Shown: in pieces, positions 2,217-19,968 of the stretch | How positions within the stretch are numbered: position 1 is the first letter of the stretch | How the letters are laid out: every line of letters starts with the position of its first letter | From: Streptomyces sp. NBC_01235 | GTDB lineage: Bacteria; Actinomycetota; Actinomycetes; Streptomycetales; Streptomycetaceae | Length of the DNA: 64,000 bases | Direction: 5' to 3' | Assembly (NCBI RefSeq): GCF_035989285.1 | Contig: NZ_CP108513.1 | Span: 3,472,001 to 3,536,000 of the forward strand | Position numbers and translations under genes: made by a program | Notes under the pieces: generated by a model | Databases searched by the model: none | What the model was told of the DNA's origin: nothing | What the model saw: the letters and a program-made list of their open reading frames with translations, nothing else

Positions 2217-2492
2217 TCACAGCGCGAGCTTGCGGCGGGTGCTGTCCGTCGGGATGTAGGCCTGCGTCTGGTCGACCCGCACCGCGTGGTGCATCGGCGC
2301 CTTGTTGGCCTGCTCCAGGGCGGACGCGGTGGCCGCGGCCGGGCCCAGGACGACCGCTGCGACGGCGCAGAGCACGGTCCAGGGGCTGCGGGCGGCCCTC
2401 GCCCAGCCCGGCCCCTGCTGCGCGCTCTGCGCGTTCCCTGCGGCCCCCGTGGCCCCCGTGACCCTCGTGGACCGAGTACGGCTGCTGTTCAT
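2217..2492 (-). CDS. Small membrane-anchored or secreted hypothetical protein
   Basis: About 91 residues. A basic N-terminus (NSSRTRSTR) is followed by one hydrophobic stretch (WTVLCAVAAVVLGPAAATASA) that looks like a signal anchor or signal peptide, then a short polar tail. ATG 2492 is chosen because GGAGGTGGGG lies just upstream; the longer frame to 2525 has no such site. It is followed on the same strand by nothing close, and the amidase gene lies upstream. Function unknown. Confidence 0.55.
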   Translation of the reverse strand: MNSSRTRSTRVTGATGAAGNAQSAQQGPGWARAARSPWTVLCAVAAVVLGPAAATASALEQANKAPMHHAVRVDQTQAYIPTDSTRRKLAL

Positions 2493-2564
2493 GATCCCCA
2501 CCTCCGGTCGGCTTGTGTTGTACATGACCGTAGGACGCCGGTATGGGAGAACCCTGAAGGCCGC

Positions 2565-3515
2565 CTAAGGGGTTCCTGTGAGCGCCGGCGCGGCCGTTCG
2601 GCCCTGGAGGCGGGCGGCCCTCGCGCGGATCTCCGGCAGACGGGCGGTGAGGGCCTTGCCGGGACAACTGGTCATGTAGCCGTCGTTGTGGCCGGCCAGG
2701 GCGGGAAGGACGGCGGCGGTGCCCGAGGCGTACCGGCTGAGGCTGTTGCTGGAGGTGAGCCGGACGGTCGTGCGCGGGTCGATGTCGGACAGGCCGAGTT
2801 TCCAGGCGGTCAGGGCGGCGATCGCGTCGACCATCGCCTGCGGCACCGGAACCCCGGCGGTGAACGTGCCGAGTGCGGCGATGCCGACCGTGCGGTGGTT
2901 GAAGCCCTGGGTGTGGGCGCCGGTGACGGGGCGGTCGACGCCGCCCGCGCGGCCCTCGTAGATGGTGCCGCAGCGGTCGACGAGGAAGTTGTAGCCGATG
3001 TCGTCCCAGCCCCGGGCGTCGGTCTGGCCCACGTACAGGTAGCGGATGATGCGGGGCGCGTCGGCGCAGTCGTAGCCGTTGGGCGAGTCGGTGTGGTGGA
3101 CGAAGACGGCGACGACCTTGTCGTCGTAGCGCGGGGGCGGCTGCGCGTGCCGGGCCAGGCCGTCCAGCCAGGCGGCACGCGGCACGACCGGGGGCCGGGC
3201 CGCCTGGTGCGCGGTGGCGGGGCGGGCGGCGTCCGGATGGCCGGCGCGGGCGGCCGTGGCGACGTGGTCGACACCGCCCGCGCACAGCCCGAGGGCGGCG
3301 ACGGCGGCGAGCCCGGGCAGGCAGCCCAGGAGTACGAGGAGCGGGCCCGGTATCCGCGCCGGGAGCCGCCCTCGCGTTCCCCGCGGACCGCGGGAGGCCG
3401 CTCGGAGGGCACACATGGACACACTGTCGGCCGGTTCCGGTCCGTCCGCGATGTGGGCTGTGCCACCTGGTGGAACCAACCTCCCGGTGCACGCCGTTTT
3501 ACGAGGTACACGCAC
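2565..3515 (-). CDS. Secreted N-acetylmuramoyl-L-alanine amidase / peptidoglycan-recognition protein
   Basis: Up to 316 residues. After a hydrophobic segment (GPLLVLLGCLPGLAAVAALG) that would export or anchor it, the rest is an amidase_2/PGRP fold. AVFVHHTDS carries the first zinc-binding His, GYNFLVDRCGTIYEGRAGG is the family signature, and GHNDGYMTSCPGK supplies further zinc ligands. It should cleave or bind the amide between muramic acid and the stem peptide outside the membrane. The true start is uncertain: GTG 3515 and ATG 3416 are both possible and neither has a clear ribosome-binding site. ATG 3416 would leave a more ordinary signal peptide. Confidence 0.85.
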   Translation of the reverse strand: MRVPRKTACTGRLVPPGGTAHIADGPEPADSVSMCALRAASRGPRGTRGRLPARIPGPLLVLLGCLPGLAAVAALGLCAGGVDHVATAARAGHPDAARPATAHQAARPPVVPRAAWLDGLARHAQPPPRYDDKVVAVFVHHTDSPNGYDCADAPRIIRYLYVGQTDARGWDDIGYNFLVDRCGTIYEGRAGGVDRPVTGAHTQGFNHRTVGIAALGTFTAGVPVPQAMVDAIAALTAWKLGLSDIDPRTTVRLTSSNSLSRYASGTAAVLPALAGHNDGYMTSCPGKALTARLPEIRARAARLQGRTAAPALTGTP

Positions 3516-3615
3516 ACGTGGCCGGTTCCGGACGTAAGCGTGGGCGTGATCGATGGGTAGCTGATCACTGGGCCCTTCCCGCGCGTACTAGGGGATCCGA
3601 GAGAAAGGGGGCCGC

Positions 3616-4800
3616 GTGGACCTGCTCGACATCCTGCTGGCGCTGGTGATCCTGGCCTACGCCGGCTCCGGCTACCGGCGCGGACTGGTGGCCGGCTGTA
3701 TCTCGCTGGCCGGGTTCGTGGGCGGCGCGGTGATCGGCGTGTGGGTCCTGCCGTGGCTGATGAACCTGGTGACACCGGGGACGACGGCGGCCACCGTCAC
3801 CGCCGTGTTCACGGTCCTCGTCCCCGCGGTGGTCGGGCACGAGCTGGCGGGGCGGCTGGCGCTGCGGCTGCGCCGGGAGCTGGACCGGGGGCCGCTCAGG
3901 GTGGCCGACGGGGTCGGCGGGGCGGCGGCGAACGCGGTGGCGGTGCTGATCGTGGCGTGGGTGGCGGCGAGCGTGCTGGGCGCGTCCTCGTCGCCGGTGG
4001 TCACGTCGTCGATACGGGACTCACGGCTGTTGGGGGCCGTGCAGGACGCCATGCCGGACACCACGCCCACCTGGTTCTCGCGAGCCACGTCGGCGCTGAC
4101 CCAGGCGGGCTTCCCGCAGGTCTTCAACCCGTTCGAGAACGAGTCGACGGCCGAGGTCGCCAAGCCCACCGGCGACAGCGTCACGGCGAGCGCGACCAAC
4201 GCGGCGAAGATGAGCACGGTGAAGATCGAGGGCGTCTCGGGCGACCAGGGCCGCGAGGGCAGCGGCTTCGTGTACGCGGACGAGCATGTGATGACCAACG
4301 CGCACGTGGTGGCGGGCATCGACGATCCGACCGTACGGATCGGCGGGGTGGGGCGGTCGTTCGACGCGCGCGTGGTGCTCTTCGACCCGGACAAGGACGT
4401 GGCCGTGCTGTACGTGCCGGACCTGAGCGCCCCGGTCCTGAACTTCGACGACGACGCCTCGCGCGGGGACTCGGCGGTCGTCGCCGGCTATCCGCAGGAC
4501 GGCGACCTGAACCTCCAGGCGGCGACGGTCGCGAACCGGGTGAAGGCGACCGGACGGAACATCTACAACGACGAGATCGTCACCCGCGAGATCTACTCGA
4601 TCCGCTCCACCGTCCGCCCCGGCAACTCCGGCGGACCGCTGCTGACCACCGCCGGCCAGGTCTTCGGCGTCGTCTTCGCCCGCTCCACCTCCGACGACGA
4701 GACGGGGTACGTGCTGACGGCCGCCGAGGTCGCCGACGACGCCGAGCGGGCGTCGACGGCGACGGAGCCGGTGGACACGGGTGACCTGATCACGTCGTAG
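3616..4800 (+). CDS. MarP-like membrane serine protease (CvpA + trypsin domains)
   Basis: 394 residues from a GTG start with GAGAAAGGGG upstream. The first ~150 residues hold four hydrophobic helices of the CvpA family (MDLLDILLALVILAYAGSG onward). Residues ~200-385 form a chymotrypsin-like protease with the full triad: His230 (TNAHVV), Asp261 (DKDVAVL) and Ser338 (RPGNSGGPL). The Mycobacterium homologue MarP (Rv3671c) protects the cell during acid stress by processing a peptidoglycan hydrolase. The neighbouring peptidoglycan amidase on the opposite strand makes a cell-wall role plausible here, but that is inference. It is convergent with the GNAT gene. Confidence 0.9.
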   Translation: MDLLDILLALVILAYAGSGYRRGLVAGCISLAGFVGGAVIGVWVLPWLMNLVTPGTTAATVTAVFTVLVPAVVGHELAGRLALRLRRELDRGPLRVADGVGGAAANAVAVLIVAWVAASVLGASSSPVVTSSIRDSRLLGAVQDAMPDTTPTWFSRATSALTQAGFPQVFNPFENESTAEVAKPTGDSVTASATNAAKMSTVKIEGVSGDQGREGSGFVYADEHVMTNAHVVAGIDDPTVRIGGVGRSFDARVVLFDPDKDVAVLYVPDLSAPVLNFDDDASRGDSAVVAGYPQDGDLNLQAATVANRVKATGRNIYNDEIVTREIYSIRSTVRPGNSGGPLLTTAGQVFGVVFARSTSDDETGYVLTAAEVADDAERASTATEPVDTGDLITS

Positions 4801-7972: not shown

Positions 7973-9508
7973 TCACCCCAGGGCGGCCACCTTGTCGCGG
8001 TAGGTGCGGACCGGGGCCGCGTCCCGGTACGGCTCCAGGCGACGCTCGAAGTCCCTGACGTACTCCAGGGCCCGCACGGACCGCATCTCCGCCGCCTGGC
8101 CCGCCGCCTCGGCGGCGAGCTGGCAGGCCTGGTCGAGCTCGCCGAGGCCGAGCCGGGCGGAGGCGAGTACGACGCGGCAGAACAGACGGCTGCGGGCGTA
8201 CGCGGCGGGACGCAGCTGGAGCGAGCGTTCGGCGTGCTGGGCGGCCGCCCGGAACTGCTGGAGGTCACGGTGGCAGTGCCCGAACTCGTCGGCCAGCTGC
8301 GCCTCGTCGAAGAAGCGCGCCCAGTGCGGCACCTCGTCCCCGGTCTTGGCCGCCTCCAGCGCGCGCTCGGCCCGCACGAGCGCGGCGGTCGAGGCGCGCA
8401 CCTCGCCCAGCACCCCGTGCCCGCGCGCCTCCGCCGCGTGCAGCAGCGCCTGCACGACGGGCGGGGCGCCCGTGCCGACCCCCTGCTGGGCCACCCGCGC
8501 GAGCTGCACCGCCTCGCGCCCGTGCCCGAGATAGACGGCCTGGCGGCTCATGGTGACCAGGACGAAGGAGCCGTACGCCCGGTCCGCGGCCGCCTGGGAG
8601 AGGCGCAGGGCCTGGACGAAGTAGCGCTGGGCCAGGCCGTGCGCGGCGATGTCGAAGGAGGTCCAGCCGGCGAGCCGGGTCAGGTCGGCGGCGGCGCCGA
8701 AGAGGCGGCGGCCGGTCTGCTCGCCGTAGGAGCCGCGCAGCATCGGCTCGCACTCGTGCTCCAGGTAGCGCACGAGGGCCTGCCGGGCGTGGCCGCCGCC
8801 GTACCTGTCGTCGAGGGTGCGGAAGAGCTCGCCGACCGAGCGGAGCGCGGAGATGTCGCCGCCGGTGACCCGCTGGCCGGGTCCGCGCTCACTGCCCTGG
8901 CCACGCTGCCGCGGGAGGGCCGCCGGCCCGGGCGTGACCTGGGCGGGCGCCGGCGTGGGGTGCGGGAACGAGGGCTGCGGGGACGAGGGTTGCTGGGGTG
9001 CGGCGGGCCTGGCGGACGGGCGGCCCTGGACGGGTACCCGGGCGGGCGGCTCGCTGCGGGCGACCTTCTCGTCGGCCCGCCCGATCAGCCAGTCGCGGCT
9101 CGGCACGACGAGCCCCGCCGGGGTGAAGGCGATCTTGCGGAGCTCGGCGTGGCTGCCGGAGTCCTTGCGCCAGAGCCCGCCGACGATGTCGATGGCCTCC
9201 TCGGGGGTGCCGGCGAACTCCAGGCCCGCGTAGACGGGGGCGCACGCGTCCAGACCGAGGTCCTGGGCCGTGAGCCGACGGCCCAGCCGCCGGGTGAAGA
9301 CCTCGGCGATGAGGGCGGGGGTGGTGCCCCGGGGCTGCTGCCCGCGCAGCCACCGGGTGACGGACGTCTTGTCGTATCTGAGGTCCAGCCCGTGTTCGAG
9401 GCCGAGCTGATCGACGCGACGGGCCAGTCCCGCGTTGGAGAAGCCCGCTTCTGCGATGAGCGCGGCGAGCTGGCGGTTGGGAGTGCGCTGCGCGGGTCGT
9501 TCCGTCAT
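7973..9508 (-). CDS. NsdA-like regulator (helix-turn-helix plus TPR-like repeats)
   Basis: 511 residues. The N-terminus has a helix-turn-helix region (LIAEAGFSNAGLARRVDQL, then DKTSVTRWLRGQQP). A Pro/Gln-rich linker lies at ~170-215, followed by a C-terminal helical repeat region (RALVRAERALEAA, QAAEMRSVRALEYVRDF) resembling TPRs. This architecture occurs in Streptomyces differentiation regulators of the NsdA type, which repress sporulation and antibiotic production. Whether this one does so is inference. It is divergent from lipB, separated by 246 bp that may hold both promoters. Confidence 0.75.
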   Translation of the reverse strand: MTERPAQRTPNRQLAALIAEAGFSNAGLARRVDQLGLEHGLDLRYDKTSVTRWLRGQQPRGTTPALIAEVFTRRLGRRLTAQDLGLDACAPVYAGLEFAGTPEEAIDIVGGLWRKDSGSHAELRKIAFTPAGLVVPSRDWLIGRADEKVARSEPPARVPVQGRPSARPAAPQQPSSPQPSFPHPTPAPAQVTPGPAALPRQRGQGSERGPGQRVTGGDISALRSVGELFRTLDDRYGGGHARQALVRYLEHECEPMLRGSYGEQTGRRLFGAAADLTRLAGWTSFDIAAHGLAQRYFVQALRLSQAAADRAYGSFVLVTMSRQAVYLGHGREAVQLARVAQQGVGTGAPPVVQALLHAAEARGHGVLGEVRASTAALVRAERALEAAKTGDEVPHWARFFDEAQLADEFGHCHRDLQQFRAAAQHAERSLQLRPAAYARSRLFCRVVLASARLGLGELDQACQLAAEAAGQAAEMRSVRALEYVRDFERRLEPYRDAAPVRTYRDKVAALG

Positions 9509-9754
9509 CTGCGGTGCGGTCTCCTGCCTCCCGGGCCTGTGACGTGCCCGGATGAAGTGCGCTGATTGCTGTGATCAGCCCTTTTGGCCTCATGAACGGC
9601 GCGAATGTAGCGGAGAGTAAGCAGCCCATCGCACATCTCGGCACTCATTCATCCGATCGTGTGAGGATTGGCCGCGGGGCTGACGCGGAGCGCGCGGACG
9701 TACAGTGGCTTGGGCGCGTTACGTGCCTGACGACTTTCCAGGGAGGCGCTTGCC

Positions 9755-10555
9755 GTGAGCGAGTTGCGGTTCGTCCGGATGGGGTTCGGCGGGGACGCCG
9801 TCGAGTACCAGGAGGCGTGGGACGAGCAACGCCGGGTGCACGCGGCCCGGTTCGCCGACGAGGTCCCGGACACCGTGCTGCTTCTGGAGCACCCCCCGGT
9901 CTACACGGCCGGCCGGCGCACCGCCGACGACGAGCGCCCCCTGGACGGCACCCCGGTCGTCGACGTGGACCGCGGCGGCAAGATCACCTGGCACGGGCCG
10001 GGGCAGCTGGTGGGGTACCCGATCCTGAAGCTGCCGCGGCCGGTGGACGTCGTGGCGCACGTACGACGCCTGGAAGAGGCGCTGATCCTTACGTGCGCGG
10101 AGTTCGGCCTGGAGACCACGCGGGTCGAGGGCCGCAGCGGGGTGTGGGTGCTCGGCGATCCCGTGGAGCTGCGCCCGTCGCTCGGCGGGCTGTCGCTGGA
10201 CTTCGACCCCCGGCTCACGGACGACCAGTTCGACCCGCGCCTGAACGGTCCCGAGTACGCCCCCTCCAACGCCGGCCAGCGCCGCGAGGACCGCAAGCTC
10301 GCCCAGATCGGCATCCGGGTCGCCAAGGGCGTCACGATGCACGGCTTCGCGCTCAACGTGAACCCGGACAACAAGTGGTTCGACCGGATCATCCCGTGCG
10401 GCATCCGGGACGCGGGCGTCGCCTCCCTGGCCAACGAGCTGGGCCGGGACGTGACGATCGAGGAGGTGCTGCCGGTGGCGGAACGGCACCTGAGGGACGT
10501 CCTGGAGAACGCGGAGCCGAAGCCCCGCGAGATCGAGAAGACACCGGCAGCCTGA
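9755..10555 (+). CDS. lipB: Lipoyl(octanoyl) transferase
   Basis: 266 residues from GTG 9755 with GGGAGG ten bases before. LipB moves octanoyl from acyl-carrier protein to the lipoyl domains of E2 and GcvH, the first step of lipoate synthesis. Signatures seen are [28 protein letters not shown] and the catalytic pair Lys191 ([14 protein letters not shown]) and Cys215 (IIPCGIRD). A ~40-residue stretch around residues 145-185 ([13 protein letters not shown]) is longer than in E. coli LipB. lipA follows after 73 bp, probably in the same operon. Confidence 0.95.
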
Positions 10556-10628
10556 CGCCCCAGCCGGCTTTCAAATCCACGGGCGTACCCTTAGGGACGC
10601 CGAAGAATCAATCGCTAGGGAGCCGGTC

Positions 10629-11594
10629 GTGTCCGCAGTCGCACCCGACGGACGCAAGATGCTGCGCCTGGAGGTCCGCAACAGCCAGACCCCCATCGAG
10701 CGCAAGCCCGAGTGGATCAAGACCCGGGCGAAAATGGGTCCCGAGTACACGAAGATGCAGAACCTCGTGAAGAGCGAGGGGCTGCACACCGTGTGCCAGG
10801 AAGCCGGCTGCCCCAACATCTACGAGTGCTGGGAGGACCGTGAGGCCACCTTCCTCATCGGTGGCGACCAGTGCACCCGGCGCTGCGACTTCTGCCAGAT
10901 CGACACCGGCAAGCCCGAGGCGCTGGACCGCGACGAGCCGCGGCGCGTCGGTGAGTCCGTCGTCACGATGGACCTGAACTACGCCACCATCACCGGTGTG
11001 GCGCGGGACGACCTGGCGGACGGCGGGGCCTGGCTCTACGCCGAGACCGTCCGGCAGATCCACCTGCAGACCGCCGAGCGGGAGGCGGGGCGCACGAAGG
11101 TGGAGCTGCTCGCTCCCGACTTCAACGCCGTCCCGGAGCAGCTCGCGGAGGTCTTCTCCTCGCGGCCCGAGGTCTTCGCGCACAACGTCGAGACGGTCCC
11201 GCGGATCTTCAAGCGGATCCGGCCCGGCTTCCGCTACGAGCGTTCGCTGAACGTCATCACGGCCGCCCGCGACTACGGGCTCGTCACCAAGTCGAACCTG
11301 ATCCTCGGCATGGGCGAGACCCGCGAGGAGGTCAGTGACGCGCTCCAACAGCTGCACGAGGCCGGCTGCGAGCTGGTCACCATCACGCAGTACCTGCGGC
11401 CCTCGGTGCGCCACCACCCCGTCGAGCGCTGGGTCAAGCCGCACGAGTTCGTGGAGCTGAAGGAGGAGGCCGAGCAGATCGGCTTCTCCGGCGTGATGTC
11501 GGGTCCGCTGGTACGGTCCTCCTACCGCGCCGGGCGCCTGTACCAGATGGCCGTGGAGAAGCGCGGGGCGTTCATCGCCACCCAGGCCGTCTGA
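10629..11594 (+). CDS. lipA: Lipoyl synthase (radical SAM)
   Basis: 321 residues from GTG 10629. LipA inserts two sulfurs into the octanoyl group using two [4Fe-4S] clusters. The auxiliary-cluster cysteines are in [13 protein letters not shown] and the radical-SAM CxxxCxxC is [20 protein letters not shown] and [16 protein letters not shown] are further family motifs. It works directly after LipB and supplies the cofactor for pyruvate dehydrogenase, whose aceE lies at the window start. A large hairpin follows 89 bp downstream. Confidence 0.96.
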
Positions 11595-11656
11595 CGCGAC
11601 GTCACCTCCCTTGCGCCGTACGGTCGCAAGCCGAGTGTGTGAATTCGCGCACAAGA

Positions 11657-11674
11657 CACTACTCGCCAGTAGTG
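11657..11674. other. Perfect 7-bp inverted repeat (CACTACT-4-AGTAGTG)
   Basis: An 18-bp dyad 62 bp after the lipA stop. It is more A/T-rich than its surroundings and has no U-tract, so it may be a protein-binding site or a small mRNA hairpin. Confidence 0.5.
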
Positions 11675-11682
11675 ACCGATAA

Positions 11683-11733
11683 GACGCGGTCCCGGCCGTC
11701 CTCGCAGATGAGGACGTACGTCGGGGCCGCGTC
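11683..11733 (+). terminator. Long hairpin, probable lipA terminator
   Basis: Outer arms (11683-11694 with 11722-11733) pair at nearly every position with one G-U. An inner stem GTCCTC/GAGGAC closes a 6-nt loop. A short T-rich run (AGCGTTT) follows. Confidence 0.6.
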
Positions 11734-11771
11734 AGCGTTTCGGCCCTGCGCATCAAGGCTTCATTCGTGTT

Positions 11772-11800
11772 TGACCGGTCGGTCACGCACTGGTAACACC
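11772..11800 (+). promoter_or_regulatory. Candidate HrdB-type promoter for the small gene at 11876
   Basis: TTGACC at 11772-11777, a 17-nt spacer, then TAACAC at 11795-11800. The spacing is ideal; the -10 is a moderate match. It would start a transcript ~70 nt before the small ORF. Confidence 0.5.
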
Positions 11801-11875
11801 AATCAGTGACGCTGCTATCACATCACGTAGACCACGCAGCCCCGTACCCGAAGCCGTCCGAGGGGGACACCCACC

Positions 11876-12088
11876 ATGCAGGCCGCGCCCGTTCGCGCCA
11901 CCGCGATCCCGACCTTCAGCACCGCACTGCGTGCCGTCGAGTCGCTGCTCATGAGCAGCGGCCAGCGCACCGCCCGTCGCAACGCCTGGACCTCCGTCCT
12001 GGAGGACCGCCGTCGTGCCAAGGACCGGGTCGAGGCGCAGCGCGTCCTCGAGGCGGTCACCTCACCCCTGACCTCCACCCGCCCCTGA
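11876..12088 (+). CDS. Small conserved basic protein of unknown function
   Basis: 70 residues (MQAAPVRATAIPTFS...). It is Arg/Ala-rich, predicted helical in the second half (LEDRRRAKDRVEAQRVLEAV), with no membrane segment and no cysteine. GGGGGA lies just before the ATG and a promoter-like pair ~75 bp upstream. From memory, a similar short ORF sits between lipA and the DUF4191 gene in other Streptomyces. Function unknown; a DNA- or RNA-binding role would fit the charge but is only a guess. Confidence 0.6.
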   Translation: MQAAPVRATAIPTFSTALRAVESLLMSSGQRTARRNAWTSVLEDRRRAKDRVEAQRVLEAVTSPLTSTRP

Positions 12089-12143
12089 CCATCCCCCTCC
12101 CCGCACCTCCCCTCCTGCCGTCGTAGGCGCTTCCGAGGCCACG

Positions 12144-12149
12144 TAGACT
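12144..12149 (+). promoter_or_regulatory. -10 box TAGACT, leaderless start for the DUF4191 gene
   Basis: TAGACT is a strong match to the Streptomyces HrdB -10. The ATG at 12157 begins 7 nt after it, so transcription would start at or next to the A of the start codon. No clear ribosome-binding site is present. Confidence 0.5.
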
Positions 12150-12156
12150 TCGTGGC

Positions 12157-12861
12157 ATGGCGAGAAGTGACAGCGCGGCGGACGCCGCTAACCCCGGGCG
12201 ACTGAAGCAGATCGCCCTGACGTACAAGATGACCCGTAAGGCCGACAAGACGATCGGTCTTGTCCTCGCGGGCGTCTTCATCCTCATCTTCGGCGTCTTT
12301 CTCGCGATCGGTTTCCTGATCGGCCACCCGGTCTACCTCGGCATCCTGGGCTTCCTGCTCGCCTTCCTCGGGACGGCGATCGTGTTCGGGCGCCGTGCCG
12401 AGCGGGCCGCCTTCGGTCAGATGGAGGGACAGCCCGGCGCGGCCGCTGCGGTCCTCGACAACATCGGCCGGGGATGGACGACGACCCCCGCCGTGGCGAT
12501 GAACCGCAGCCAGGACGTGGTGCACCGGGCCGTCGGCAAGGCCGGCATCGTCCTGGTCGCCGAGGGCAACCCGAACCGGGTGAAGAGCCTGCTGGCCGCC
12601 GAGAAGAAGAAGATGAACCGCATCGTCGCGGACGTCCCGGTGCACGACGTGATCGTCGGTACGGGCGAGGGCCAGGTCGAGCTGAAGAAGCTGCGCACCA
12701 CCCTGCTGAAGTACCCGCGCGTCCTGGCCGGCCCCCAGGTGACGGCCACCAACGACCGGCTGCGCGCCATGGGCGACCTGATGAGCAACATGCCGCTGCC
12801 GAAGGGGCCGATGCCCAAGGGCATGCGCCTGCCGAAGGGCGGCGGCGGCAAGGCCCGCTGA
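12157..12861 (+). CDS. DUF4191 integral membrane protein
   Basis: 234 residues. After a polar N-terminus (NPGRLKQIALTYKMTRKAD) come two membrane helices at ~residues 35-55 and 60-80 (IGLVLAGVFILIFGVFLAIG and GILGFLLAFLGTAIVF). A soluble C-terminal domain with VDNxxRGW-like and VVHRAVGKAGIVLVAEG motifs follows. It matches the actinobacterial DUF4191 family, which is usually found near lipA and an RDD gene, as here. Function unknown. It ends at a perfect bidirectional hairpin shared with the RDD gene. Confidence 0.85.
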   Translation: MARSDSAADAANPGRLKQIALTYKMTRKADKTIGLVLAGVFILIFGVFLAIGFLIGHPVYLGILGFLLAFLGTAIVFGRRAERAAFGQMEGQPGAAAAVLDNIGRGWTTTPAVAMNRSQDVVHRAVGKAGIVLVAEGNPNRVKSLLAAEKKKMNRIVADVPVHDVIVGTGEGQVELKKLRTTLLKYPRVLAGPQVTATNDRLRAMGDLMSNMPLPKGPMPKGMRLPKGGGGKAR

Positions 12862-12880
12862 GCCGCACGGCTTTCCCGGC

Positions 12881-12930
12881 GGTACGAGGAAGGGGCACCC
12901 GGAGTGATCCGGGTGCCCCTTCCTCGTACC
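12881..12930. terminator. Bidirectional terminator, perfect 22-bp stem
   Basis: Arms 12881-12902 and 12909-12930 are exactly complementary around the 6-nt loop AGTGAT. It lies between the convergent DUF4191 and RDD genes and would serve both. Confidence 0.9.
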
Positions 12931-12936
12931 GGAGGT

Positions 12937-12960
12937 TCAGATCCTCAGATCCTCAGATCC
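12937..12960. repeat. Three tandem copies of TCAGATCC
   Basis: Exact 8-bp unit repeated three times. The third copy overlaps the end of the RDD gene, whose stop is the TCA at 12953 read on the minus strand. Confidence 0.8.
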
Positions 12961-13420
12961 GCACTTCCACCGTACGGGCCAGCCGGTCGTGCAGACCTCG
13001 GCCGTCGCGGTCCCAGACCAGGGCCGGGACGGCCAGGCAGAGCAGGACCGTGCGCGCCAACGAGCGCAGGGGGCTGACGGCGCCGGTGTCGGCGGAGACC
13101 ACGCGCAGGCCGAAGAGCCGCTTGCCCGGGGTGAAGCCGACCGTGCCGACCGTCAGGACGCTCATCACGAGGAAGACGAGCAGGGCCCAGTTGCCGGTGG
13201 CGGGCCGGTAGCCGTCCGTGATCAAGCTGTATGCGATCAAGACGCCGAGGCCCCAGTCCACGGCCAGGGCGCCGAGCCGCCGCCCGGGGCGGGCGATCGA
13301 GCCCGGTCCCTCCTCCGGCAGACCGAGCCGCTCGCCCCGGTATCCGAAGTCGACACCTGCTTCCTCCGCGGCCGCGCGGGGCCCCGAGAGCCACGAGCCG
13401 ATTGCATCCCTGTTGTCCAC
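12953..13420 (-). CDS. RDD family membrane protein
   Basis: 155 residues. The RDD signature is present ([20 protein letters not shown]), with further hydrophobic segments ([19 protein letters not shown] and [18 protein letters not shown]) giving about three helices. [17 protein letters not shown] is the conserved loop. RDD proteins are small membrane proteins of uncertain function, sometimes linked to ion transport. It is divergent from glnA, sharing a ~200-bp control region that contains the GlnR site. Confidence 0.88.
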
Positions 13421-15027: not shown

Positions 15028-15047
15028 TCGGACCGTGAGCCGTCCGG

Positions 15048-15078
15048 CGCCCCCGCTCTGTTTCTCAGGGCGGGGGCG
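15048..15078 (+). terminator. glnA hairpin terminator
   Basis: CGCCCCCGC (15048-15056) pairs perfectly with GCGGGGGCG (15070-15078) around a 13-nt loop, 20 bp after the glnA stop. Confidence 0.75.
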
Positions 15079-15136
15079 TCGTCGTATGGTTTCTGGCACT
15101 GTTGTTCGAGAACGGCGTGACGGGGGAGACACGGGG

Positions 15137-15394
15137 ATGCCCGAACAGGACGACGCGGAGCGGGAGTTCGACCTCAAGTGGGCGGACGACGCGACGCACA
15201 AGGAACCTTCCGCGCGGGCCCGCATGCTGGCCGCCCGCTGGAAGGAGAACCCTCCCGAACCGGTCCCGTTCCGCGGTGACCCCGGCCCGGTCGCACCACG
15301 CCGCTCGTCCTGGGCGTCGACCGCGCTCGTGCTGGGCTGTGTGATCGCGACGATCCTGCTGCTGGGGTACGTGCGGTTCAGGGCGCCGTACTAG
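15137..15394 (+). CDS. Small single-pass membrane protein
   Basis: 85 residues from ATG 15137, with GGGGGAGAC upstream; the longer in-frame start at 15035 would overlap the glnA terminator. It is an acidic N-terminal cytoplasmic part (PEQDDAEREFDLKWADD) with a C-terminal helix (STALVLGCVIATILLLGYV) ending at the last residues, so a tail-anchored topology is likely. It is found next to glnA in other Streptomyces as far as I recall. Function unknown. Confidence 0.7.
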   Translation: MPEQDDAEREFDLKWADDATHKEPSARARMLAARWKENPPEPVPFRGDPGPVAPRRSSWASTALVLGCVIATILLLGYVRFRAPY

Positions 15395-15422
15395 ATCGGC
15401 GCCGTAGGACGACGGCGCCGAT
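15395..15422 (+). terminator. Hairpin directly after the small membrane protein gene
   Basis: Perfect 11-bp stem ATCGGCGCCGT / ACGGCGCCGAT with a 6-nt loop, beginning at the base after the stop codon. Confidence 0.8.
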
Positions 15423-15533
15423 CGGAACACCGGGAATCCACCTTACTGCCAGGGCTGTTGGGCTGCGCGGTGCTACTTTTGTGCCTCTTCGCTCACCGTC
15501 GGTGTCCAGGTCAACACAAGAACGGTTGGTCCG

Positions 15534-18296
15534 GTGACAACAGCCCGTCCTTCGCGTACCGCCGTCGTCGTGACAGCGCTTCCCGTGGAGTTCTCCCCGT
15601 TGCTGGACCGTCTCAGGTCCGAGCACGCCCGGCCCAAGGGGCAGCGGAGAGTCAACGCCACCGTGGTGCAGTCCTTCGAGCTCGACGGCGTCTACGCCTC
15701 CTGGACCGTGCACCTGGCCCAGGTGGGCGTGACGAACGTCGTCGCCGCGCTGGGGACGCACGGTCTCCTGGAAGTGCTGCGGCCGGACGTCGCGCTCCTG
15801 GTCGGGATCGCGGGCAGCCTCAAGGACGACATCCCTCCGGGGGACGTCGTGGTCGCCACCAAGGTGTACGAGATCCACGGCGCCAAGGTGTCGGCCGAGG
15901 GCCGCGGCGCCCGTCCCGACGCCGTGGACACCTCGCTGTCCCTGTGGCAGACGGCGCTGTACGCGGACGTCCGCAGCAAGTGCCACTTCAAACCGATCGC
16001 CTCCGGCGACGTCGTGCTCGACGCCAAGTCCGGGGACATCCGGAGCCGGCTCAGCAGCACCTACCAGGATGCGGCCGCCCTGGAGATGGAGGGTTTCGGT
16101 TTCTGCAAGGCGGCCCAGCGCCACCGTACGGAAGCCCTGGTCATCCGCGGGATCAGTGACCGTGCGGACGGCGAGAAGGGCGCGGCCGACGCCGAGGGCG
16201 GCCAGCAGCGGGCGGCCGCCAACGCGGCGGAGGTGGCCGTCGCCGTGCTCCTCCAGCACCAGCCCGAAGGCACCGACACGTCGGCGCCGAAGAAGAAGCT
16301 CCCCCCGCGCCCTCCGGAGCGCCCCCGGCGCCCCGGGGGAACCAGCGGCCGCACCCCGCGCCGGCCGTACGCGGCGCGGTGGCGCGCCGACCGCTGGAGG
16401 AACGGCGGGAAGAACGGCTGGAAGGGCCGGGCGAAGCTCTGGGTGCCCCTCACCGCGGCGGCCGTCGCCCTCGGGATCGTCCTCCAGTCGTGCGGGAACG
16501 GTGGGACCGACGGCGGGGACGCCAAGCCGCTCTCCGGGTCGGCCTCCCCCGCCCTGCCGGCCTGTGATGCGGCGAACACCGCGCCCCTCACCATCGCCGC
16601 CTCCGTCGACAAGTCGGAGCCCATGCGGCGGGCGGCCGAGGCCTACGGCAACCGGGTCGCGGGCGGGAAGTGCCTGGCGATCAAGGTCGAGGACAAGAAC
16701 TCGGGCGACGGGATGCGCGCCCTGGTCGGCGGCTGGAGCGAGTCGGACGGGACGAAGCCGGACGTGTGGGCGCCGGCCGGGACTACGTGGCTGTCGCTGG
16801 CCAGGGCCGCGGCGAACGGGAAGAACGCGCGGCAGTTCCCGGAGCGGGCGGAACCGATCGTGCAGAGCCCGCTCACCATCGCCATGCCGAAGCCGATGGC
16901 CGAGGCGCTGAACTGGCCCGAGCGGCGGTTCACCTGGGCACAGCTGGCCGAGTGGGCGAAGAACGCCGACGGATTCTGGGCGGGTCACAAGAAGCCGGAG
17001 TGGGGGCCCTTCAAGCTCGGCAAGACCAACCCGGGCTACTCCACGTCCGGGCTCAACGCGACCGTCGCCGCCTTCTACGCCACGACGGGCACCAGTGGTG
17101 AGCTGGGCATCCCGCACATCGACGATCTCGGCAACCGCGCGTTCGTCAAGACCATCGAGCAGGCCGCGGTCCACTACGGCGACACCACCCTGACCTTCCT
17201 CTCCAACCTCCGCGAGGCGGACCGCAGCAGTCCCCAGAAGGCCATGTCGTACATCTCCGCCGTAACGCTGGAGGAGAACACCGTGGCGGCCTACAACGCG
17301 GGCTATCCCTGTGGCGCGCTCAGCACGGCCGACGACTGTGCGAAGACCACCCCGCCGGACACCCCGCTGGTCTCGTTCTACCCGAAGGACGGCGTCCCGT
17401 TCTCCGACCACCCCTATATCGAGCTGAACGGGATGAGCTCCGCCAAGAAGGCGGTTGCCGACGACTTTCTCCGGTACCTGCAGAGCCCCCAGGTCTACGG
17501 CAAGCAGTTCGCCCCCTACGGCTTCCGCACCCACGAGGGCACGATCCCCCAGGGGTCCGCGCAGCTCGTGGAGGCCAACGGAGTCCTGCCCAAGGCGCAG
17601 TTCACCCGTATGCCGATGCCCAGGGGCGACGTCCTCAGCCATCTGCTGGAGGTCTGGCCCACGCTGCGCCGACGCGCCAACGTCCGCATCGTCATCGACA
17701 CCTCGGAGTCGATGAACGACGTGATCCCCGGCACCGGCGACACCAAGATGGAGCGCCTGAAGCAGGCCCAGGCCACGCTGTTCGGCGAGTTCACCGGCAC
17801 CGACCGGGTCGGTCTGTGGAAGTTCTCCGACGCCTTCGTCCTCGGCGGCGACACCGACTACAAGGAACTGGTGCCCCTCGGCCCGTACAACCAGAAGCTG
17901 GCCGCAGGCACGCGCGCGGAGCTGCTGGCCGAGAACGTCCACAGCCTGGAGCCGGAGGGCGCGACCGGTCTCAACGACACCCTCGACGCCGCGACCAAGG
18001 CCATGCGGGACGACTACGACCCCCAGGCCATCAACGCGATCGTGCTGCTCACCGACGGCCACAACGAGGACGTCGGAAGCCTGACGCAGGCGGAGCTGCT
18101 GAAACGGATCGGCGACCCGGCCCAGCACCAGATCCGTGTCTTCACCATCGCCTACGGGAGCGAGGCCGACGAGGACGACACGAACGGCAGGAGCGCCCTC
18201 GAGGAGATCGCGAACGCCAGCGGCGGGAAGGACTACGACGCCAAGAGGGCCGAGACGATCGAGCAGGTCATCACCAGCGTGATCTCCAACTTCTAG
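15534..18296 (+). CDS. Four-part fusion: nucleoside phosphorylase/nucleosidase - membrane helix - solute-binding domain - vWA domain
   Basis: 920 residues in one frame from GTG 15534. Residues ~8-240 are a phosphorylase/MTA-SAH-nucleosidase fold (LLVGIAGSLKDDIPPGDVV, ALEMEGFGF with Glu184 and Glu186, RGISDRAD with Asp209). Residues ~245-300 are a Pro/Arg/Lys-rich linker. Residues 302-319 form a membrane helix (LWVPLTAAAVALGIVLQS), followed by a Gly-rich spacer. Residues ~345-705 resemble an extracellular solute-binding protein (DVWAPAGTTWLSLARAAA, YIELNGMSSAKKAVAD, FLRYLQSPQVYGKQFAPYGF). Residues ~716-920 are a vWA domain with a complete MIDAS (Asp722-x-Ser724-x-Ser726, Thr811, Asp841). The topology would put the nucleosidase inside the cell and the binding and vWA domains outside. 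Solute-binding/vWA proteins and effector-like nucleosidase domains are each known; I do not know this combination. Confidence 0.85.
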   Translation: MTTARPSRTAVVVTALPVEFSPLLDRLRSEHARPKGQRRVNATVVQSFELDGVYASWTVHLAQVGVTNVVAALGTHGLLEVLRPDVALLVGIAGSLKDDIPPGDVVVATKVYEIHGAKVSAEGRGARPDAVDTSLSLWQTALYADVRSKCHFKPIASGDVVLDAKSGDIRSRLSSTYQDAAALEMEGFGFCKAAQRHRTEALVIRGISDRADGEKGAADAEGGQQRAAANAAEVAVAVLLQHQPEGTDTSAPKKKLPPRPPERPRRPGGTSGRTPRRPYAARWRADRWRNGGKNGWKGRAKLWVPLTAAAVALGIVLQSCGNGGTDGGDAKPLSGSASPALPACDAANTAPLTIAASVDKSEPMRRAAEAYGNRVAGGKCLAIKVEDKNSGDGMRALVGGWSESDGTKPDVWAPAGTTWLSLARAAANGKNARQFPERAEPIVQSPLTIAMPKPMAEALNWPERRFTWAQLAEWAKNADGFWAGHKKPEWGPFKLGKTNPGYSTSGLNATVAAFYATTGTSGELGIPHIDDLGNRAFVKTIEQAAVHYGDTTLTFLSNLREADRSSPQKAMSYISAVTLEENTVAAYNAGYPCGALSTADDCAKTTPPDTPLVSFYPKDGVPFSDHPYIELNGMSSAKKAVADDFLRYLQSPQVYGKQFAPYGFRTHEGTIPQGSAQLVEANGVLPKAQFTRMPMPRGDVLSHLLEVWPTLRRRANVRIVIDTSESMNDVIPGTGDTKMERLKQAQATLFGEFTGTDRVGLWKFSDAFVLGGDTDYKELVPLGPYNQKLAAGTRAELLAENVHSLEPEGATGLNDTLDAATKAMRDDYDPQAINAIVLLTDGHNEDVGSLTQAELLKRIGDPAQHQIRVFTIAYGSEADEDDTNGRSALEEIANASGGKDYDAKRAETIEQVITSVISNF

Positions 18297-18436
18297 CGTG
18301 ATCTCCCGCTCGTTCCTCCCCCGCTCGTGCTCCTTCTCGTTCCTTTACTCTCCGCAGGGCCGATCTCGGTCTGTCCATGGGCGGCGCAGGCGCACAATGG
18401 GCAGTGGGACGAGTGCCTGACTGCGGGGTGATGCAG

Positions 18437-19357
18437 ATGCAGAGCCGTTTCCGGAGCGATCGGCGGCTGACCGTGCGGATGACGGTCACGTTGTTCCTGC
18501 TCGGGCTGCTGTACGTGGCCTTCGTCGCCGCGTTGATCGTGTTGCTGAAGTCGTGGCTGCTGGTCGTGGTGCTCGTGGGGGCCCTGTTCGTCGCGCAGTT
18601 CTGGTTCTCCGACCGGATCGCCCTGTTCGCGATGCGCGGGCGGGTCGTGGAACGGGACGAGTATCCCGAGCTGCACGCCGTCGTGGACCGGCTGTGCGCC
18701 ATCTCGGACGTGCCGAAGCCCGTCGTCGCCGTGTCCGATATGGACATGCCCAACGCGTTCGCCACCGGACGCAATCCGCACAACGCCGTGCTGTGCGTGA
18801 CGACAGGGCTGCTCAGGCGGCTGGAGCCGGCCGAGCTGGAGGGTGTGCTCGCGCACGAGCTGTCGCACGTGGCGCACAAGGACGTGGCCGTGATCACGGT
18901 CGCGTCGTTCCTGGGCGTGATCGCGGGGCTGATCGTGCGGTTCGCGTTCTACTCCCAGCTGTTCGGCGGCGGGCGCAGGGACCAGAACACCGCCGTCGTC
19001 TTCGCCGCCGTGATGGCTGTCTCCGCGGCCGTGTACGCGCTCAGCTTCCTCCTCATCCGGGCCCTGTCCCGGTACCGGGAGCTGGCGGCGGACCGGGCGG
19101 CCGCGCAGCTGACCGGCCGTCCCTCGGCGCTGGCCTCCGCGCTGACCAAGGTCTCCGGCGACATCGCCCGCATCCCGACGAAGGACCTGCGGACGGCCCA
19201 GGCCTTCAACGCCTTCTACTTCACCCCGGCGACCGGCCGGGAGCCCGGTATCGAGCGGTACTTCTCCACCCACCCGAGCCTGGAGCAGCGGCTCGAGCAG
19301 CTGGGGCGGATCTCCGCCGAGCTGGGCGAGGCGGCCACTCCGGGGAAGGCGGGCTGA
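18437..19357 (+). CDS. htpX: HtpX-like zinc metalloprotease
   Basis: About 306 residues. Two helices near the N-terminus (VTLFLLGLLYVAFVAALIVLL and LLVVVLVGALFVAQFW) precede the M48 catalytic motif HELSH, with the third zinc ligand in YRELAADRAAA. Two more helices flank it. HtpX is a membrane-bound quality-control protease that works with FtsH on misfolded membrane proteins. ATG 18437 is preferred because GCGGGG lies 8 nt upstream; ATG 18431 and an earlier in-frame start also exist. The PspAB-like gene follows after 5 bp, so the two are co-transcribed. Confidence 0.9.
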   Translation: MQSRFRSDRRLTVRMTVTLFLLGLLYVAFVAALIVLLKSWLLVVVLVGALFVAQFWFSDRIALFAMRGRVVERDEYPELHAVVDRLCAISDVPKPVVAVSDMDMPNAFATGRNPHNAVLCVTTGLLRRLEPAELEGVLAHELSHVAHKDVAVITVASFLGVIAGLIVRFAFYSQLFGGGRRDQNTAVVFAAVMAVSAAVYALSFLLIRALSRYRELAADRAAAQLTGRPSALASALTKVSGDIARIPTKDLRTAQAFNAFYFTPATGREPGIERYFSTHPSLEQRLEQLGRISAELGEAATPGKAG

Positions 19358-19362
19358 GGCGC

Positions 19363-19968
19363 ATGGGCCTGCTGGACATCCTGCTCGGCCGGACGAAGCC
19401 GGTCGTGCCCGACCTCGATCAGCTGTTCGCGCTGCCGTCCGCGGCGGTGACGCTGGAGGCGGCGGCCGGCTTCACCCCGACCGGGCACGGTGCCGTGTGC
19501 TTCGCGACCGTGGAGGGCTCGGCCTTCGAGCAGACGCACCGCGAGGTCCAGGCCCTGCTCGACGCCGACACCGAGCGCACCGGTCCCCCGGTGCGGCTCG
19601 TGCGCGACGGCTACGGCTACTCCTGGCTGGTCTCGCAGCGCGCCCCGGACGAGCTGTCCGCCCTGGTCAACGATCTGCACGCGGTGAACAGCGCGATGGA
19701 GGTCAACGGCTTCGGACCGCAACTGCTGTGCTCCCTCGCCGGTTTCGAGGAACAGGCGGGCGGGGCGGAGGCCGAGGGCGGGCGTCGGCTGGCGCTCGTG
19801 TATCTGTACAAACGCGGCTCGTTCTACCCGTTCGCGCCGCTGCCCGGTGGTGGGCAGCGGCGCGACAACCCGCTGGAGTTGCAGGTGAAGGCCGCCCTTG
19901 CCGGCGACCTGCGGATCGAGCAGGACCTGAGCCGCTGGTTCCCGGTGTGGGGAGCCCCCGGCCTCTGA
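19363..19968 (+). CDS. PspA-associated protein PspAB-like
   Basis: 201 residues, cytoplasmic, beginning MGLLDILLGRTKPVVPDLDQLF, the conserved start of the actinobacterial PspAB family that is usually encoded beside htpX. No membrane segment or catalytic motif is seen. The start lies 5 bp after the htpX stop, indicating an operon for membrane-stress response. pspA itself is not in this window. The next gene is convergent and ends 10 bp away. Confidence 0.8.
   Translation: MGLLDILLGRTKPVVPDLDQLFALPSAAVTLEAAAGFTPTGHGAVCFATVEGSAFEQTHREVQALLDADTERTGPPVRLVRDGYGYSWLVSQRAPDELSALVNDLHAVNSAMEVNGFGPQLLCSLAGFEEQAGGAEAEGGRRLALVYLYKRGSFYPFAPLPGGGQRRDNPLELQVKAALAGDLRIEQDLSRWFPVWGAPGL

Follow-up and report, generated by a model that had tools for sequence, protein, structure and literature searches.

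A predicted single-pass receptor with a nucleosidase-type domain belongs to an effector-swapped actinobacterial family

Within a 64,000-nucleotide stretch of the Streptomyces sp. NBC_01235 genome (contig NZ_CP108513.1, positions 3,472,001 to 3,536,000; hereafter "the window", numbered from its first letter), one gene encodes a protein that joins a nucleoside-phosphorylase (PNP) domain to a solute-binding domain (SBP) and a von Willebrand-type A (vWA) domain. The protein belongs to a modular family of actinobacterial receptors with swapped effectors, in which the same SBP-vWA ectodomain is preceded by different N-terminal domains. With moderate confidence, we propose that it is a stand-alone, single-pass receptor-effector in which an envelope-stress ectodomain is wired to a conflict-type nucleosidase.

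The gene, its membrane layout and its active site

The gene occupies positions 15534-18296 of the plus strand as a single intact frame of 920 codons, with a GTG start at 15534 and a stop at 18296. The in-frame stop upstream is at 15405, the GTG is the first ATG, GTG or TTG past it, and two homologues (P0012 and P0014) begin with Met at the same position. Three Pfam families match above cut-off: PNP_UDP_1 (residues 10-239, positions 15561-16250, E 7e-21), SBP_bac_11 (residues 352-654, 16587-17495, E 8e-17) and VWA (residues 716-899, 17679-18230, E 1.5e-11). A basic linker and one membrane helix separate the first from the second. Frame, Pfam and hydropathy thus bear out the original prediction, which had read this order of parts from the sequence alone. 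The plan is common to 58 other database proteins (60 PNP-type proteins were counted, including P0001 and P0003, which are the window's own). A survey of Streptomyces for the domain order found the PNP-fused form in one open frame in at least 7 of 392 genomes, the window's included; the PNP part was looked for only in long, close matches. The original prediction had left room for two genes joined by a sequencing error at ~16200-16450. Because so many proteins and genomes share the plan, and because the residues described below are invariant in 45 of 45 relatives, we ruled out a fusion created by a frame or sequencing error. A frame of 916 amino acids on the opposite strand (15378-18128) is presumably a shadow frame of the kind common in high-GC DNA.

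A hydropathy scan placed the membrane helix at residues 302-318 (16437-16487), with a net charge of +7 over the preceding 20 residues and -1 over the following 20. The only further hydrophobic stretch, residues 77-93, falls within the PNP fold. Charge is more positive on the N-terminal side of the helix in all 60 PNP-type proteins, which corresponds to an N-in topology and supports the layout originally proposed, with the enzyme inside and the SBP and vWA domains outside. The cytoplasmic linker (residues 246-300, 16269-16433) is basic and Pro-rich. It has the lowest mean conservation of six measured regions, with no column at 95%, and pLDDT in the predicted model is below 50 for residues 253-332. 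In the ectodomain, four Cys residues (344, 380, 593 and 602) are invariant in the 45 non-redundant members, and the MIDAS of the vWA domain is complete, as predicted, with D722, S724, S726, T811 and D841 present in 45 of 45 relatives, window included. By sequence, the ectodomain matched solved structures in its vWA part only. PNP-domain matches took up the Foldseek and VIA lists, which therefore hardly probed the SBP fold.

Structural matches to the predicted model give the PNP part an MTA/SAH nucleosidase (MTAN) fold, at 15-24% identity to the matched structures. The window protein scores 75.1 bits against PF01048, above the gathering cut-off of 25.1. Its best NCBIfam match is the MTA/SAH nucleosidase equivalog NF004079 at 70.4 bits, below the cut-off of 169, and the PADLOC PNP effector model gave 49 bits versus 70 from the MTA nucleosidase model. 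The active site is intact. All 45 non-redundant PNP-SBP-vWA proteins keep E19, E186, R205, S208, D209, D212 and K215; R127 is kept in 44, and position 185 is Met in 33 and Thr in the other 12. We take E19, E186 and D209 to correspond to the catalytic E12, E174 and D197 of E. coli MTAN. This agrees with the prediction of an MTA/SAH-nucleosidase-type site inside the cell. The domain nevertheless differs from MTA/SAH nucleosidases and futalosine hydrolase in that it is not free-standing, falls below the equivalog cut-offs and carries the additional conserved residues R127 and K215. In alignments with two distinct MTA nucleosidases, which cover all invariant PNP residues except E19, the position opposite R127 is Met or Leu and that opposite K215 is Ala. 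This pair points to a substrate with a charged 5' group. MTA nucleosidases act as dimers, the partner subunit contributing residues to each active site, and R127-P128 aligns with a stretch that presumably enters the partner's 5' pocket. Because R127 and K215 are kept and R127-P128 aligns with that stretch, we tentatively favour a charged, nucleotide-like substrate together with gating by dimerization. Overall, the layout and the active site are well supported, and the ligand, substrate and role discussed below are inferred.

Swapped N-termini and a conflict-type enzyme family

Relatives were collected by protein searches (the best 120 listed in each) and by a genome scan (80 kept of 281 relative-encoding stretches), then sorted by what precedes the ectodomain. 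The SBP-vWA unit follows a PNP domain in 71 cases, a helix-turn-helix cluster in 37, a Ser/Thr kinase in 22 and a caspase in 6; these counts include near copies and loci that repeat database proteins. Small numbers of further N-termini share the same ectodomain, including one with a TCAD9 match (P0169). We built a quick tree of 130 SBP-vWA ectodomains, with 30 effector-free ones drawn randomly and the commonest effector-free lineage of Streptomyces absent. A single branch (support 100) sets off the fused forms, together with one row labelled effector-free (P0162) and four unlabelled rows, and the PNP forms make up one group (support 99). Eight label changes explain the seven N-terminal types in this tree, versus 62 when labels are shuffled. 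The long branches of P0049, P0181, L044 and L050 are uncertain.

Two further ideas about the history of the PNP domain were set aside. Repeated, independent capture from NLR-like proteins was unsupported, as a single origin of the SBP-vWA-linked PNP domains was not rejected (approximately unbiased (AU) test, p 0.59). An early sign of a PNP swap within the window's own clade vanished in a careful tree. The trees conflict around P0020 (AU p 0.0009 for the ectodomain and 0.028 for the PNP domain), but we do not claim recombination there because the groups were chosen after the trees had been seen. Some PNP domains diverge far beyond their ectodomains; that of P0019 is 42% identical to the window's, and its ectodomain 78%. 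P0015, from Streptomyces, is 645 residues long and has no annotated PNP domain; its ectodomain shares 86-87% identity with that of the window protein. Either a wrong start or a lost effector would account for this.

The closest precedent is the two-gene EACC1 system. In the searched text of Kaur et al. 2020 (System 4, PMC7159879), EACC1-associated caspase proteins carry either a vWA domain or a transmembrane helix with a PBP domain outside the cell, and a PNP domain is proposed as signal generator in vWA-MoxR systems. The window protein resembles that system in being membrane-linked, with an N-terminal enzyme and a C-terminus of the kind that varies there. It differs in having a PNP domain instead of a caspase or cyclase domain, and in belonging to a family in which the ectodomain is constant and the N-terminal part is swapped. 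In Streptomyces adustus (L020, the single locus examined for the caspase version), an EACC1 gene (PF19953, 72.8 bits, cut-off 23.6) lies directly upstream of a caspase-SBP-vWA gene and ends a few bases from its frame start. P0158, an S. adustus entry that is probably this same protein, scores 214 bits against caspase_w_EACC1, for which the cut-off is 140. Given this neighbour, this protein type and the published architectures, we regard the window protein as a cousin of EACC1-caspase proteins with PNP in place of the caspase. No EACC1 gene was seen beside the window gene, where one small upstream frame (15035-15394) was scanned and had no Pfam match.

The PNP family extends beyond receptors. 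A search with residues 1-250 returned 61 proteins, 42 of which (P0196-P0237) are not SBP-vWA proteins. Pfam identified NACHT in P0196 above cut-off and in P0197 just below it, CATRA in P0199, trypsin in P0198 (with VMAP-M matches below cut-off) and a kinase match below cut-off in P0212; six more relatives carry a precomputed NB-ARC label. Twenty of the 80 kept loci (L067-L086) matched in the PNP region only. In six of seven such loci examined, a separate PNP gene is followed by a STAND-type NTPase gene, for which Pfam confirmed NB-ARC and TPR in L085. In L083 a single frame of 1600 residues (8342-13141) combines PNP, an AAA/NB-ARC-type NTPase and TPR in an NLR-like layout, with NB-ARC below cut-off. 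Because members of the family are combined with NACHT, NB-ARC-TPR, CATRA and trypsin modules and occur in STAND gene pairs, we consider the enzyme part a conflict-type module, in agreement with the original prediction. In L069, L072, L074, L076, L080 and L085 (~9400-12930), the PNP gene has ~290 codons and precedes the STAND/NB-ARC-TPR-type gene; L074 and L085 also have a divergent membrane-protein gene of ~179 codons ahead of it.

Rousset et al. 2023 reportedly found PNP effectors in Detocs, CBASS and NLR-like systems. In PMC11249213, as far as its searched text goes, the Detocs PNP effector cleaves ATP to adenine and ribose-5'-triphosphate, and PNP effectors are also cited in one table of PMC10952713. 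The window protein shares the PNP-superfamily domain that these defence proteins use as an effector, and differs in its putative outer sensor, a part that the searched text of these sources does not describe for them. A partial literature search, supplements not covered, found neither effector-swapped SBP-vWA receptors nor SBP-vWA proteins beside Psp genes described. The original prediction called the protein the best candidate in the window for an undescribed system. This needs correction: the protein is no lone oddity, and parts of it have precedents in the searched text of PMC7159879.

Two sets of neighbours were observed beside other fused types. The helix-turn-helix-SBP-vWA gene of Umezawaea (L018, 9653-15663) lies directly before a DnaK-GrpE-DnaJ-like chaperone cluster, as labelled from sequence. 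In Lentzea (L027 and L061, past 11827), kinase-SBP-vWA genes lie near a repeated gene set, c51-c54, which we take to resemble a conservon.

Genomic neighbourhoods of effector-free and fused relatives

Many SBP-vWA proteins are "plain" or effector-free, meaning that no N-terminal domain was recognised, and a few of these have long unassigned starts. A locus was scored as Psp-linked when PspM and/or PspA genes lay downstream in the same orientation, no more than 5 kb away, and loci with at least 3 kb of downstream sequence were counted. In total, 35 of 69 plain loci were Psp-linked, compared to none of 26 distinct effector-fused loci (0/30 before removal of the duplicates L100=L007, L104=L012, L105=L014 and L106=L025; Fisher p 6e-7, uncorrected for relatedness). 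The first plain set accounted for 30 linked loci of 42, with PspM in 29 and PspA in 23, and 14 more had too little sequence. This set came from the genome scan and the phylum-wide draw; its sole Streptomyces plain locus was the window genome's own copy, and six weaker places from the draw were omitted. We then fetched 28 more plain loci, and only 5 of the 27 with enough sequence were linked, which led us to reject a Psp link for plain SBP-vWA proteins as a whole. The closer Streptomyces plain copies were Psp-linked in 5 of 7 cases, with PspM present and PspA absent. In L150-L154 a PspM-like gene follows within 5 kb, with no PspA there; the commoner lineage (L128-L141 and L146) has neither.

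PspA proteins of plain loci match PF04012 (E 2e-41 and 7e-29), and the PspM-like product is a membrane coiled-coil protein. The Planosporangium locus L038 (9326-13593) has the order ClgR-like, SBP-vWA, PspM-like, PspA, and a ClgR-like gene also lies upstream of the plain gene in L041, L043 and L047. A plain gene stands directly before PspM-like and PspA genes in these four loci, in L023 and L029, and in others. This arrangement recalls the actinobacterial ClgR-PspA-PspM response (PMC11237479, searched text), since many effector-free SBP-vWA genes shortly precede PspM/PspA; the window protein differs in lying outside such an arrangement and in carrying an enzyme domain. Neither "vWA" nor "von Willebrand" appears in the searched text of two Psp surveys, PMC11237479 and PMC9239133. 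That some members of the SBP-vWA family are associated with Psp genes is apparently new, and the Psp-linked plain proteins are candidates for an outer sensor of the actinobacterial Psp system. The Psp-linked relatives L029, L038, L055 and L057 are 36-44% identical to the window ectodomain and two PspM-linked Streptomyces copies ~36%, versus 29-31% for three sampled members of the Psp-free Streptomyces lineage. In these samples, the window ectodomain appears nearer to the Psp-linked copies than to that lineage. The original prediction stands in layout and active site, and is corrected by the modular family, the published precedent and the Psp link of the nearer plain relatives.

SBP-vWA matches at E 1e-20 were present in 133 of 392 Streptomyces genomes, mostly at 30-38% identity, and a phylum-wide draw yielded a match at 1e-40 in 24 of 346 genomes. 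Besides the fused copy, the window's genome carries a single plain one, and the genome's one PspA is ~35 kb distant. In the window, glnA is two genes upstream of the receptor gene and is followed by c16 (15137-15394, plus strand), which encodes a small membrane-type protein. Nine of 15 distinct PNP-type loci (the window, L007, L008, L009, L010, L011, L016, L101 and L103) have the receptor gene in this position after c16. There it is mostly followed by htpX and a pspAB-like gene, although htpX was not called in L011 and L016. In the window, these neighbours are an HtpX-like M48 peptidase gene (18377-19357, plus strand; Pfam Peptidase_M48, E 1.7e-33) and, at the glnA/c16 site only, a gene that we take to be PspAB-like (19363-19968, plus strand; no NCBIfam match at E 0.001). 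Membrane metallopeptidases and PspAB are Psp-linked genes according to the searched text of PMC11237479. The order c16-htpX-pspAB is kept in 10 of 12 fetched loci that have no receptor; of the other two, one reaches a contig end and in one no htpX was found. Therefore, the receptor gene is a clean single-gene insertion at a permissive site, bounded by c16 and htpX, and the idea that htpX and pspAB are its operon partners is weakened. In two of these ten, L091 and L092, the gap between c16 and htpX holds ~1.5 kb of other sequence, filled in L092 by a 477-codon frame (2326-3759) without a Pfam match. The site may be a small insertion hotspot.

The other six PNP-type loci (L012-L015, L019 and L102) lie elsewhere, and no adjacent partner gene is conserved across the different sites of the PNP-type. 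A SpoIIE/GAF-type family, c21, occurs within 10 kb in four of five other-site loci (L012, L014, L015 and L019, not L013) at varying distance and strand. An ABC-transporter family, c17, occurs near the PNP-type gene in L012 and L013. PADLOC mad3 and mad8 matches fall on ABC-transporter family members (the L012 one by Pfam), and a QueC match was weak.

Proposed mechanism and competing explanations

In the mechanism that we propose, the SBP and MIDAS-bearing vWA domains outside the cell would sense either the condition of the envelope or a molecule set free by envelope damage. Binding of ligand or metal would shift the dimer state of the ectodomain, and the change would pass through the single helix and flexible linker to bring two inner PNP subunits together. 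The paired PNP domains would split off the base of their substrate, which is more likely a nucleotide than a nucleoside. The outcome could be nucleotide depletion or a signal that halts growth, perhaps during attack by phage or toxin. To our knowledge, the best-known bacterial immune receptors read molecules inside the cell. A bolder version of our proposal, which we offer only tentatively, holds that these proteins are one-protein transmembrane immune receptors, whose Psp-shared ectodomain detects an envelope breach made by phage or toxin and switches on an interchangeable PNP, caspase or kinase; such receptors would sense damage and would not recognise non-self.

A number of observations weigh against the proposed mechanism. 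The window protein has no adjacent PspA or PspM, and its htpX and pspAB-like neighbours are present with or without it. Likewise, none of the 17 PNP-type loci examined, of which 3 are duplicates, had PspA or PspM on its strand in the next 5 kb downstream. Even among plain loci, 34 of 69 have no Psp link, including the commonest plain lineage of Streptomyces (0/15; 14 places picked across the Streptomyces matches, plus G067), the other weaker phylum matches that were initially omitted (0/5) and the plain copy in the window's genome. The counts depend on local profiles built from 10 PspM, 7 PspA and 3 ClgR proteins of the very loci counted, and the p value overstates independence because loci are related to one another. 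In L038 both the ClgR-like (NF041677, 112 bits, cut-off 170) and the PspM-like protein (NF047839, 45 bits, cut-off 80) score below cut-off. The ectodomain evolves more slowly than the PNP domain (mean identity 0.63 versus 0.49), unlike an arms-race sensor. Finally, PADLOC found no convincing defence gene among 10 proteins, 8 of which are neighbours of PNP-type genes at other sites, the glnA site not having been scanned.

In one rival explanation the ectodomain, as in a receptor of the EACC1 kind, would recognise a particular outside non-self molecule from a phage or a rival, or a signal, with PNP as the effector and the Psp link of some plain relatives no longer relevant. The EACC1 gene beside the caspase version, the NACHT, NB-ARC and CATRA partners of the PNP family, the lack of Psp genes at fused loci (0/26) and the patchy presence of the PNP-fused form among Streptomyces genomes all fit such ligand-specific recognition. 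Conservation of the ectodomain over much of its length (columns at >=95%: 131 of 346 in SBP, 69 of 205 in vWA) does not, and we judge this explanation unlikely, though it deserves serious consideration. We find it distinctly improbable that the protein is a nutrient or metal receptor, in which the SBP domain binds a small solute and PNP tunes nucleoside or S-adenosylmethionine-cycle metabolism. SBP_bac_11 is a solute-binding family, the nearby glnA would hint at nitrogen control, MTA/SAH nucleosidase is the best NCBIfam match, ABC-transporter family members occur in L012 and L013, and an MFS gene immediately precedes the receptor gene at the site common to L013 and L015. However, the NCBIfam match is far under its cut-off, 6 of 15 distinct loci are away from the glnA site, and kinase and caspase versions would fit metabolism poorly.

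Cleavage near the helix, at the lipobox-like LQSC, might instead activate the protein or yield a free cytosolic PNP domain and a lipid-anchored SBP-vWA part. Of the 60 PNP-type proteins, 30 have a hydrophobic-x-Ser-Cys motif close to where the helix ends, and the linker is modelled at low confidence. That motif is missing from half of the PNP-type proteins, an N-terminal part of 300 residues before a lipobox would be odd, and Gln at -2 is unusual in a lipobox; we give processing a very slim chance. A dead remnant or annotation artefact can practically be dismissed, as all 45 relatives have intact catalytic and MIDAS residues, even where ectodomain identity to the window protein falls to ~54%, and the gene is a clean insertion at an otherwise conserved site.

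In the course of evolution, one outer sensor has come to be joined to nucleosidase, protease, kinase and DNA-binding-type domains. If the sensing step of the envelope-stress proposal is true, an envelope-damage response would be linked to conflict effectors in multicellular bacteria, and the actinobacterial Psp system would gain a candidate outer sensor. Both could be tested in ordinary Streptomyces.

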